Shown piece by piece: positions 7,002-28,390 of a stretch of DNA of 64,000 nucleotides. Positions within the stretch are counted from its first letter, which is position 1, and every line of letters begins with the position of its first letter. This stretch comes from Malus domestica (taxonomy: Eukaryota > Streptophyta > Magnoliopsida > Rosales > Rosaceae). Under the pieces are notes generated by a model, which was given only the letters and a program-made list of their open reading frames with translations, was not told the DNA's origin and ran no database searches. Location: positions 508,501-572,500 of the forward strand of contig NC_091675.1 of NCBI RefSeq assembly GCF_042453785.1, read 5' to 3'. Both the position numbers and the translations under genes were made by a program.

Positions 7002-8332
7002 TGTTGGAGTTTTGAGACTCCTCTCCCACATCATCGGGGAACATAGTGGGAACATAGGATTTCAAAGGACCTTTATATATGTTTTGTCTTTTACAATATT
7101 AGTTAGGATTTGGACCATTTGGAAATGAATTGAAGGCTTGGGCCTTATGGTTGTGTGGTGTCACATCCCAGACCGGCTATGCCGTAGCACTATATTGTCT
7201 ACTTTGGGCTCACTATTCCTTCACGATTTTATTTTTGGGAACTCAAATGAGAACTTCACAGTAGGTCACCCATCCTTGAATTACTCTCGCCTGAACTTGC
7301 TTAACTTCGGAGTTCCTATGGAATCCAAACCAATGAGTTTCGAAAAGGCCTCGTGATATATGGAGGTGGGCATGTACATATAAGGCACATCACCCCATCC
7401 TCGTTGGTCGATGTGGGATGTTACAATCCACCCCCTTAGGGGCCTGACGTTCTCGTTGGCACACTCGCACCGAACGACATAATGGCTCTGATACCATTCT
7501 GTTACATCCCGGACCGATTTCGTCGTAGCACGATATTGTCCGCTTTGAGCTCACCATTCCCTCACGGTTTTGTTTTTGGAAACTCAGACGAGAACTTCCC
7601 AGTGGGTCACCCATCCTGGGATTGCTCTCGCCCGAACTCGCTTAACTTCGGAGTTCCGATGGAATCCGAAGCTAGTGAGTTCCCAAAAGGTCTCGTGCTA
7701 TATGGAGGTGGGCATGTACATATAAGACACATCACCCCCTCCCCGTTGGTCGATGTGGGATGTTACATGTGGATTAGGTTTGTAAAATATAGCCTAATAC
7801 AATTAATATTAATTAATCGGATTCATTAATTTTAAATTCGGATTAAGTTTTTAATTAATTTATTAATTAAAAAACGTTTTGATTAAGAGACATAGCTCTT
7901 AGAAAGAGTTGTGTATTTTCAAGTTCGCTGAACAGGTATTTGAAAATGTGTGAAACAACCTATATATTTGCAATCACAGTTTTCAAGTAGGATCATCTTT
8001 TCTTCCTCCTTATCTTCTGTACAAACTTTCCAGAGAGTAAACACACAAAGCAATTAGCTAGAATTCTATAATCCAGTGCGGGTTGTAGAATTAGGAAGTT
8101 GTATCCTATTCGAGCTGACGTTATAGAACCACAAGCACAAGAGTGAGACGGAAATACTGTTCGAATGACATAACTTTTGCGATAGCCTCTACCTGTTGTA
8201 ATCAAGTTAGTACCATTTTAATTCTTGTACTTATTTTTGTATTTCATTTTGTATAGCAAATATTTTTAGTTAATAAAGTATTAGAATTTCAAATTCTGTT
8301 ATTTTTATTTATTTCTGAATTTTTCTCCAACA
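7002..8332. mobile_element. Solo LTR (Ty1/copia-like) interrupted by a Cassandra TRIM
   Basis: This fossil begins TGTTGGAG and ends CTCCAACA, with the 5-bp direct repeat ATATT on each side (6997-7001 and 8333-8337). Removing the nested element leaves about 717 bp, the size of an LTR, with no internal region beside it; a single LTR is the usual product of recombination between two. Family assignment rests on the TGTTGGAG...CTCCAACA ends only. It ends 168 bp before the start codon of the GDSL gene at 8501. Confidence 0.65.
7159..7767 (-). mobile_element. Cassandra TRIM (LTR element with 5S rRNA-like sequence), structurally complete
   Basis: The two LTRs are 7500-7767 (5' LTR, element on - strand) and 7159-7425 (3' LTR). 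The primer-binding site (TGGTATCAGAGCC on -) is at about 7485-7497 and a purine tract lies beside 7430. The target duplication is TGTGG (7154-7158 and 7768-7772). Each LTR contains a 5S rRNA-like stretch, for example AACTCCGAAGTTAAGCG and AGGATGGGTGACC on the - strand, the hallmark of Cassandra. There is no coding capacity, as is normal for TRIMs. The LTRs differ visibly from each other, so the insertion is not recent. It lies inside the solo LTR. Confidence 0.9.
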
Positions 8333-24724: not shown

Positions 24725-26195
24725 CTGTAGAACCACAAGATTATGCTCATTTCTTTTAGATCATTTATATTTGTGCACCTGCCACTTGGTGATATTGTCC
24801 AGATGCATGCAGTTGCAGGAGGACTAGGGCTATTTAGTCCTAAACTGCGCAGGCTGCAGATGCAGTCATATGTAATTTTCGTGATTTTCTTCTGCAATAT
24901 TATTAGTAAGAATACGTCATTGAGGCAGCTGCGACAGTCAAGCTGCCGAAGAATGTGACTGTCCCGGCTGTTATTGCATTCGGAGATTCGATTGTTGATA
25001 CCGGCAACAACAACGAAAACTTCAAGACATTTGCACGCTGCAATTTCCTTCCCTACGGAAAAGACCTCAAGGGAGGAATGCCAACTGGCAGATATTCCAA
25101 TGGAAAGGTTCCCACAGACTTCATAGGTTGTCATCACCATCACCATCATCATCATCCATCACCATCACCATTGAACACTAATAAAAGATTACTAACTGGT
25201 ATTATTATGATAATTGAGTTAGGAACAAGGAAGAAAATATCGGTAATATTGGAAATATCGGTAGTCCGAAAATACGGAAATATTGATGGAAATATCGGGA
25301 TAATATCGATATCGATAAAAATTACATGGAAACCACGGAAATTGTAAGAAAAACTTGGAAATTTTTAATGAAACTTTGCAGGATGTTTATTTAGTCAATT
25401 ATCTATTAGTTTATCACAAAAAATTGAAAGAAAATGCATTGCATGATGGATTTAACTGATTTAAGTTGATTATATAACGAGCTGGCAAACATTGTGAGTG
25501 TAGAAAATATGTAGTAATTAATGAAAGAAGTTTAAACACACCATAATCATTTATATATAACTAATTAGTACAATATTGGGAGGTTTTATTTAGGATATTA
25601 AAAAAAAAAAGGAATTGAATAAAATGATGAAGAATAATGTGCCGAATTTGACACTTTAAATTTCTTACACATAAGCATGCGTCTAGGCGTTGAAGTTCCA
25701 AATTATAGTATATCAATTAATAATTGAAAATCAATAGGTTGAATAAGACTAAACTTTAATTTGGATGCCGATTATGTTTTTTTCAAGTTTATATAAAGTA
25801 AAAGAATTGAATTTTGGAAGCCAAGAGTGTGTCAATTGTTTTATAATTCGTCCGGTCAAACCACGGCGAGTTGGCCGGCGTACAAGGTATCAATCTCTTC
25901 GTCTCGTCGAGTAGTACAACTTTCCTTTTTGTTTCACTCAATTTCGTTGAGTATTGAAAAAATTATACTCATTTGAATCTTACCCAGTTTCCGGCGACCG
26001 CAGTGACTTTCGAGGCATTTTCCGGCCAAACCACGACGAGTCAGACGTCGTGTGAGATACCATTCTCTTCGTCTCTTCGAGGGCTACAACTTTCGTTTTT
26101 GTCTTGTTTGATTTCGTTGAGTTTTGACAAAGTTATGGCCGTTTAAAGTGGGTGTAAATTTTCGGCCGAAATTCTGATTTTCTCTCCTTTGGGCG

Positions 26196-26301
26196 AGTCC
26201 CACATCGCCCATGCGAGGGCAGTGAGCAAGCAATTTGTCCTATAAAACCCACATTCCCCTGCTAAAAAAGGCATAGCTTGTTCGGCCTTTTGGGCTATGA
26301 T
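26196..26301 (+). ncRNA. U2 snRNA-like 5' end with snRNA promoter (outer element, degenerate)
   Basis: AGTCCCACATCG at 26196-26207 is a perfect plant snRNA upstream sequence element (consensus RTCCCACATCG). A TATA box (TATAAAA, 26241-26247) follows after about 33 bases, the spacing of Pol II snRNA genes. About 32 bases further on, ATAGCTTGTTCGGCC begins, then TTTTGGGCTATGATC, close to the U2 start (ATACCTTTCTCGGCC, TTTTGGCTAAGATC). The inner element splits it at 26301; it resumes at 27625 (ATCAAGTGAAGTATG, U2 has ATCAAGTGTAGTATC). After about 45 bases the match to U2 is lost, so no full U2 RNA can be made. The comparison with U2 is from memory. Confidence 0.6.
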
Positions 26302-27624
26302 CATGGAAGAAAAATCGATAATATCGGCGATATTTCGCCATATTATCGTTTTTTTGGAAGTTCGATATTTTTTTAACTATCCGAACGATTTTTGTTAAAA
26401 TATCGCGATATTATCGATAATATTGCAATATTTTTGAAATTATCAATAATATCGCGACTTAATACTAAAAAATACTTAAATATGTTGAGAAAACTCATAC
26501 TTCACTTGATCATAGCCCAAAGGCCGAACAAGCTATGCCTTTCTCAGCAGGGGAATGTGGATTTTATAGGACAAATTGCTTGCTCACTGCCCGGGGAATG
26601 TGGGTTTTATAGGACAAATTGCTTGCTCACTGCCCTCGCATGGGCGATGTGGGACTCACCCAAGGGAGAGAAAATCAGAATTTCGGCCGAAAATTTACAC
26701 CCCCTTTAAACGGCCATAACTTTGTCAAAACTCAACGAAATCAAGCAAGACAAAAACGAAAGTTGTAGCCCTCGAAGAGACGAAGAGAATGGTACCTCAC
26801 AAGATGTCTGACTCGTCGTGGTTTGGCCGGAAAATGCCTCGAAAGTCACTGCGGTCGCCGGAAACTGGGTAAGATTCAAATGAGTATAATTTTTTCAATA
26901 CTCAACGAAATTGAGTGAAACAAAAAGGAAAGTTGTACTACTCGACGAGACGAAGAGATTGATACCTTGTACGCCGGCCAACTCGCCGTGGTTTGACCGG
27001 ACGAATTATAAAACAATTGACACACTCTTGGCTTCCAAAATTCAATTCTTTTACTTTATATAAACTTGAAAAAACATAATTGGCATCCAAATTAAAGTTT
27101 AGTCTTATTCAACCTATTGATTTTCAATCGTTAATTGATATACTATAATTTGGAACTTCAACGCCTAGACGCATGCTTATGTGTAAGAAATTTAAAGTGT
27201 CAAATTCGGCACATTATTCTTCATCATTTTATTCAATTCCTTTTTTTTTTAATATCCTAAATAAAACCTCCCAATATTGTACTAATTAGTTATATATAAA
27301 TGATTATGGTGTGTTTAAACTTCTTTCATTAATTACTACATATTTTCTACATTCACAATGTTTGCCAGCTCGCTATATAATCAACTTAAATCAGTTAAAT
27401 CCATCATGCAATGCATTTCCTTTCAATTTTTTGTGATAAACTAATAGATAATTGACTAAATAAACATCCTGCAAAGTTTCATTAAAAATTTCCAAGTTTT
27501 TCTTACAATTTTCGTGGTTTCCATGTAATTTTTATCGATATCGATATTATCCCGATATTTCCATCAATATTTCCATGTTTTCGGACTACCGATATTTCCG
27601 ATATTACCGATATTTTCTTCCTTG
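26302..27624 (+). mobile_element. hAT-like non-autonomous element (inner copy, 1323 bp)
   Basis: It begins CATGGAAGAAAAATCG and ends CGATATTTTCTTCCTTG, flanked by the 8-bp repeat GCTATGAT (26294-26301 and 27625-27632). It is the same element as the outer copy in reverse orientation, inserted into the outer copy's U2-like segment. Together they make a near-perfect large palindrome. Its own U2-like module is on the - strand. Confidence 0.85.
26480..26656 (-). ncRNA. U2 snRNA-like 5' end with snRNA promoter (inner element, uninterrupted)
   Basis: On the - strand the USE is at 26656-26645, TATAAAA occurs at 26611-26605 and again at 26568-26562, and the U2-like part starts at about 26536 (ATAGCTTGTTCGGCC, then GGGCTATGATCAAGTGAAGT). 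A segment of about 43-45 bases containing the TATA box is duplicated in tandem compared with the outer copy. The U2 match covers roughly the first 45 nucleotides (the branch-site recognition region of U2 starts near its end) and then diverges. Confidence 0.55.
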
Positions 27625-28390
27625 GCTATGATCAAGTGAAGTATGTGTTGAGTTTTCTCAACATATTTAAGTATTTTTTAGTATTAAGTCGCGATATTAT
27701 CGATAATTTCGAAAATATCGCGATATTATCGATAATATCGCGATATTTTAACGAAAATCGTTCGGATAGTTAAAAAAATATCGAACTTCCAAAAAAACGA
27801 TAATATCGGCGAAATATCGCCGATATTATCGATTTTTTCTTCCATGGTTAGGAATAAACTTTGAATGTTAGCCTTTGCTTTTTGTACAACTTCGTAAAAC
27901 CGGTCAATTAACCCTAGTTTTTTTCTTAAAAATCTAAGAATTTAATTTTCATCTTTAATTTTGTCCCAGAAATTTTGAATAATTATTCACACATACGATA
28001 AAATGTTCAATAACCCTACTCTATGTTACGATTTTTTTTTTCATGTACAGTGGAAGCATTCGGAATCAAGGAGCTGTTGCCGGCATATTTGGATCCAACC
28101 CTGCAGCCTAATGACCTCCTTACCGGTGTTGTCATAGCTGCCGGTGGTGCAGGTTATGATCCATTGACAGCAAAACTTGCGGTACGACCTATATATTTAA
28201 GCTCTAATCCTTTGTTCTTTTGTTAATTTTATTTTTTTTCCTCCTCCATTAATTCTGGAATTCGATTGTGTAGGCAGTTGCATCGCTATCTGACCAATTG
28301 AAACAGTTCAAGGAGTACATAGAAAAGCTAAAAGGAATTGTTGGAGAGGAGAAACGACTAGAATTTCTGATGCCTTAAGCGTAATAGAAA

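Follow-up and report, generated by a model that had tools for sequence, protein, structure and literature searches.

SINEs with snRNA-derived heads exist, in which an snRNA 5′ head rides on a mobile element. The genes for U2 snRNA in plants, together with their promoter, were reportedly described by Vankan and Filipowicz in 1989. In plant Pol II snRNA promoters the USE and the TATA box are separated by four helical turns, according to PMC9845283. Dada DNA transposons insert into U6, U1 or tRNA genes with 6–7-bp TSDs, as described in PMC3706591. For Pack-TYPE elements, including Pack-hATs, a capture route via clustered insertions and re-mobilization has been proposed (Gisby and Catoni 2022, PMC8903248); the main text of that paper mentions no snRNA, promoter, apple or Malus. 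In Cuscuta, the hairpin-forming DNA of many interface-induced MIRNA loci is preceded by the plant snRNA USE (PMC10226582). Among the matches listed in a literature search of titles and abstract openings, with subscription journals thinly covered, none dealt with an snRNA gene or its promoter as part of a DNA transposon.

Here we describe a nested pair of elements in a 64,000-nucleotide stretch of Malus domestica DNA (the window) that shares features with each of these systems. As in the Pack-hATs of the PMC8903248 main text, non-autonomous hAT ends and an 8-bp TSD surround captured host DNA, but the cargo is the 5′ end of an snRNA gene with its promoter. The arrangement within that cargo follows plant U2 genes, with a USE, a TATA box ~33 bp on and a U2 start ~30 bp past the TATA box; unlike the genes, the elements retain only about nt 1–40 (type I) to 1–95 (type II) of U2, and this part is unconstrained. 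As with Dada, a DNA transposon is tied to snRNA genes, and two nested insertions occur here at one U2-head site; unlike Dada, the hAT family has U2 sequence of its own, and its insertion sites vary. The hAT elements also differ from the Cuscuta loci, which are Pol III-like miRNA loci (PMC10226582), and, being DNA elements with terminal inverted repeats, from the snRNA-headed SINEs, which are retrotransposons.

The nested pair and its U2-like heads

The nest lies on contig C15, 3′ of a coding stretch (24955–25125) that resembles a GDSL lipase with a Pfam E value of 0.0054 and 17.3 bits, where the cut-off is 23.6; the nest probably sits in an intron. As originally predicted, two hAT-like copies are nested; each is bounded by its own 8-bp TSD, GTTAGGAA for the outer and GCTATGAT for the inner copy. 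The nest is thus real, with two corrections to the prediction: 27846 is the last position of the element, and a break follows the first 29 nt of the outer U2 head. Each copy, read in the sense of U2, consists of a ~350-bp head, a repeat-bearing stretch, the USE, 33 bp, TATAAAA, the U2-like start and an ATATCG-rich tail. The USE, the TATA box 33 bp on and the U2-like starts at 26273 (+) and 26536 (−) were all located where they had been placed, and the ATATCG-rich terminal sequence said to follow the U2 head is present in both copies.

Table 1 Features of the nested elements (positions in the window)
Feature	Position	Strand	Remarks
TSD, outer element, left copy	25218–25225	+	GTTAGGAA
Outer hAT-type element, split by inner copy	25226–27846	+	Terminal repeats and TSD
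Conserved head, ~350 bp	25226–25577	+	Common to U2-free sister elements
Two diverged ~170-bp tandem repeats	25851–26147	+	Between head and promoter
USE, outer copy	26198–26207	+	TCCCACATCG
TATA box, outer copy	26241–26247	+	TATAAAA, 33 bp past USE
U2-like head, outer copy, first 29 nt	26273–26301	+	Severed by inner insertion; family alignment
TSD, inner element, first copy	26294–26301	+	GCTATGAT, within U2 head
Inner complete copy, inverted	26302–27624	−	1323 bp
ATATCG-rich palindromic tail, inner copy	26302–26495	−	Up to 3′ end
U2 snRNA-like head, inner copy	26496–26536	−	30.7 bits, E = 0.0011
Second TATA box, inner copy	26562–26568	−	43 bp later; product of 43-bp tandem duplication
TATA box, inner copy	26605–26611	−	TATAAAA, 33 bp past its USE
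USE, inner copy	26645–26654	−	TCCCACATCG
TSD, inner element, second copy	27625–27632	+	GCTATGAT
Remainder of U2-like head and tail, outer copy	27633–27846	+	
TSD, outer element, right copy	27847–27854	+	GTTAGGAA

We scanned the window with the Rfam U2 model using cmscan. The score of the inner copy (Table 1) covers 26536–26405 (−); a stretch across the resumed outer copy scored 27.3 bits (E = 0.0067), and the outer copy from 26273 only 17.7 bits (E = 1.4), as the inner element interrupts its U2 head. The scores of 30.7 and 27.3 bits are both below the Rfam cut-off of 46 bits, and no U2 match was returned when the gathering cut-offs were applied to the window. The claim that ~45 bases resemble the start of U2 is borne out by related copies and by alignment with host U2 genes, but not by the window copies alone, whose U2 origin is settled because their relatives elsewhere in the genome show U2 descent. 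Of the 22 related loci scanned, six exceeded the cut-off: five that the U2 model had itself recruited (L024, 76.2; L025, 72.6; L029, 62.1; L032, 53.3; L036, 49.3 bits) and one that the head had recruited (L079, 46.6 bits). None of this amounts to an entire U2 RNA including the Sm site and the 3′ domain, as U2 homology ends by nt ~40–95. A chance match was rejected on the basis of the cmscan scores and of the USE–TATA pattern, which matched 396 times genome-wide and twice in the control.

The inner copy was inserted into the U2 head of the outer one at GCTATGAT. At another locus, L082, an inverted element occupies the same U2-head site, and both cases have TSDs; in L005, a tail adjoins this site. 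Exact-pattern insertions at GCTAWGAT were found at five places, two of which represent one nested locus (L082) and one the window; the other two (C7:16115861 and C15:3436563) are not in U2 sequence, so that general targeting of U2 genes was rejected, and this exact-pattern search yielded no further insertion in a U2 context. Because the two non-U2 insertions share TSDs or flanks of the same form, insertion at the U2-head site reflects at most a local sequence preference. Across the family, TSDs and flanks vary widely, which is not the pattern of a transposon targeting snRNA genes. In the cluster of U2 genes on C13, one gene copy has a type I element (L013, C13:11503565; TSD CTCTTAAC) immediately upstream of its USE.

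The family, its cargo and the capture of U2

The genome searched comprised 651 Mb in 19 contigs. The first look with two head queries listed 2240 and 2045 candidates, of which 40 were scored in each case. The top 30 matches to the tail and the top 20 to the head were fetched, representing 43 distinct places. The USE–TATA–U2 module was present at 40 of the 43, so it is not absent from the rest of the family. It occurred at all 28 tail-recruited and 12 of 15 head-recruited distinct loci; the latter is the fairer figure, as the tail query itself includes ~35 nt of the U2 head. An 8-bp TSD, as expected for hAT elements, was found for 33 elements (29 exact and 4 with one mismatch; consensus GTTNNAAC), a number that is not a rate, as the scan admitted up to one mismatch, and that includes L005, a composite with an extra tail. 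The termini form short inverted repeats, CA(A/T)GGAAGAAAA ... TTTTCTTCC(A/T)TG, and this pattern had 860 exact matches genome-wide against 3 in the control, counting ends rather than copies.

Three sister elements (L092, L093 and L094) have the family head and tail and exact TSDs but different cargo. By eye, this cargo resembles 5′ ends of protein genes, with a CT-rich leader and an ATG or a 5′ splice site, running from head to tail as U2 does; no USE–TATA pair was found in them, and their similarity to the family is confined to head and tail. As judged from sequence, the family is a Pack-hAT, non-autonomous and with the U2 5′ end as one cargo among others, because these sister elements, whose cargo was assessed by eye only, hold other host DNA between the same constant ends, namely the ~350-bp head and a ~115–145-bp ATATCG-rich tail. 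When the open reading frames of three module-free loci were inspected by eye for an autonomous partner, no recognizable hAT transposase was seen. At L072, a MULE-like fragment was noticed by eye outside the element.

The U2 heads in the fetched loci were sorted by us into four types. Type I, to which the window belongs, keeps a worn ~40 nt of U2, whereas ~95 nt are kept in type II (L024–L027 and L036), nt 1 to ~62 in type III (L029, L031–L034 and L038) and nt 1 to ~44 in type IV (L073, L076, L086 and L087). Of two further relatives of type II, L089 has an unchanged USE and TATA box but just the first part of U2, and L090 has mutations in both motifs. Alignment with true U2 genes gave the expected match: type II is 77% identical to the host U2 gene at C13:11643124 across 265 columns, from ~160 bp upstream to U2 nt ~94–95. 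The alignment breaks at the common CGATATTA, the start of the element tail, and type II stops short of the host gene's Sm-like T-run. In a small tree, a single clade (99%) united types I, III and IV, and type II fell together (72%) with 10 of the 11 U2 sequences from the host. Because type II falls with the host sequences and the other types form a clade of their own, the U2 5′ end was probably captured twice. In types III and IV the USE–TATA unit is often tandem (L029, L032, L073, L076, L086 and L087), and about seven such units match at C10:18614089–18614777 (C10:18.61 Mb).

Promoter motifs, spacers and the RNA part

Most copies have spacing of the Pol II plant snRNA type. Of 40 copies recruited by head or tail, 36 have 33 bp between the end of the USE and the start of the TATA box, the rest being 32, 32, 4 and the duplicated window row. 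In a wider set of 53 rows, which included promoter-recruited copies and from which eight stray pattern matches and the host U2 loci had been removed, this distance of 33 bp recurred in 49 of 51 heads across the four types, two rows having no USE that could be found. Among the 65 listed of the 396 USE–TATA matches, 29 belong to this family by their spacer, with a spacing of 33 bp in 26 and 32 bp in 3. The original proposal of a hAT-type element with a U2 5′ end at the correct Pol II-type snRNA spacing is backed by the TSDs, the related copies and the host U2 alignment.

We then counted changes in 39 copies, that is, the 40 head- or tail-recruited copies (duplicates removed by genome place) minus the inner window row, which the 43-bp duplication misplaces so that it inflates the USE changes. 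The USE (10 sites) had 6 singleton and 0 shared changes and the TATA box (7 sites) 0 and 2, whereas the spacers (55 sites) had 19 and 72; U2 nt 1–44 had 14 and 46. The singleton/shared ratio differed between motifs and spacers (Fisher P = 0.003), as did the number of sites at which any change was shared (1 of 17 versus 33 of 55, P = 6e-5), these P values and those below being rough because the copies are best matches from one genome with common descent. With types II and III added to an earlier row set (47 rows), the counts were 4 and 4 in motifs versus 18 and 126 in spacers (P = 0.016), and 2 of 17 versus 48 of 55 sites had a shared change. One subclade (L042, L047, L048, L052, L062, L063 and L065) has ~20 bp of the spacer flipped with the 33-bp distance kept, and it can bias the spacer counts because a single inversion event is scored many times. 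Masking the inverted spacer gave P = 0.004 for the singleton/shared test and 0.0014 for the site test; dropping the subclade gave P = 0.12 for the former, with the latter still at 0.0014.

Pairwise comparisons separated the elements from the host genes. Type III L029 and type I L003 differ at 0 of 17 motif, 18 of 55 spacer and 15 of 53 U2 positions, and L029 and L064 at 0, 12 and 16, respectively. By contrast, three pairs of host U2 genes differ at 1/53, 3/53 and 8/54 positions of the U2 part, at 0, 2 and 0 of 10 USE positions and at 1 of 7 TATA positions each. From these pairs, the host genes keep the RNA best, whereas the element keeps the promoter motifs and its RNA part drifts like the spacers. 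In most copies compared, the promoter is intact and the RNA part decayed.

A proposed role for the promoter, rival readings and other USE-bearing elements

The reading that we favor, at a probability of roughly 0.55, is that a Pack-hAT family captured a Pol II snRNA promoter and kept it since promoter-bearing copies amplify better. The USE/TATA promoter would be active in the sources. Either transcription or factors bound to the promoter might leave the 3′ end accessible to transposase, so that copies with a working promoter would multiply more. In the complete copies examined, the promoter points toward the tail, and in the inner window copy the U2 start is 235 bp from the 3′ end; for these reasons, the predicted transcription would exit through the 3′ terminal repeat. 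After insertion, each offspring copy would decay neutrally and at random. Such selection in the sources would fit the counts because the USE shows zero shared but ordinary singleton changes. We put forward more tentatively, and with rather less confidence, a stronger version in which the lineage is under transposon-level selection for the stolen promoter: sources would need it to amplify and offspring would shed it through neutral decay, and the advantage given by the promoter itself would be the reason why one hAT system captured the same U2 5′ end at least twice. If the model holds, transcription or an open promoter aids the movement of such elements, and outward-facing snRNA promoters would be scattered across a plant genome. 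Since the promoter consists of just two short motifs, the idea could be tested by altering two sites.

Several points weigh against the model. There is no evident reason for a non-autonomous DNA transposon to need a promoter; to our knowledge, such elements require their ends only. The singleton/shared contrast loses significance without the inverted-spacer clade. Moreover, L047, L055, L062 and L063, in which the USE is mutated, carry TSDs; L051 has lost the spacing, and in L090, a type II relative, both USE and TATA are mutated. The loss of significance and the broken motifs agree with a rival that we consider somewhat unlikely, namely that the U2 5′ end is captured filler traveling as a neutral passenger, USE and TATA seeming conserved since the copies are young and few sources were sampled. 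The main text of PMC8903248 describes assorted host DNA in Pack-TYPE elements, the sister elements here carry other cargo, and the RNA part is unconstrained, all in keeping with a passenger. Yet the USE and TATA block pair ranked lowest in change among the positions compared in two samples without L047 (1 of 160 and 1 of 155) and third of 151 in a sample that contained L047 and still included the misplaced inner window row. Base-matched draws attained the motif mean in only 11 of 20,000 cases, and the spacers that separate type III from type I at 12–18 of 55 sites flank motifs without a difference.

Constraint on short DNA motifs rather than on RNA could also arise if the USE were a binding site for a transposase or a host factor aiding transposition and not a promoter. 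We regard this as very unlikely, given that the TATA box and the 33-bp spacing are conserved as well and that L092–L094, in which no USE–TATA pair was found, have TSDs. Least probable of all, by a small step, is that the RNA matters, a U2-headed hairpin serving as a small-RNA precursor or an snRNA decoy, by analogy with the USE-driven Cuscuta hairpins. For 250 nt of type IV sequence beginning near nt 8 of U2, the predicted folding energy is −72.2 kcal/mol (z = −5.1 versus shuffles), and Cuscuta miRNA loci possess the USE (PMC10226582). That fold may be due to the ATATCG palindromes alone, however; the U2 head drifts as fast as the spacers, type II ends ahead of the Sm-like T-run of the host gene, and the element has Pol II-type spacing, in contrast to the Cuscuta loci, for which the description is Pol III-like.

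The USE also occurs outside this family. A second dispersed class, USE–32 bp–TATAAAA, accounts for 19 of the 65 matches listed (of 396). That these are U1 genes was rejected, as the pattern places that coincide with U1 genes are three different ones and none of the 30 listed is at the 19 places. By eye, a relative of this class at ~2469 on the minus strand of L081 precedes a primer-binding-site-like TTTGGCGTCATCTGTGGGAA, and for this reason the class may be an LTR retrotransposon promoter. Within the window, a TRIM at 7159–7767 (−), which we take to be Cassandra-like, has two repeats 341 bp apart, each starting with TGTAACATCCCACATCG and containing a 5S rRNA-like stretch, one of the two reaching the Rfam cut-off (47.6 bits); its LTR also starts with the USE decamer.
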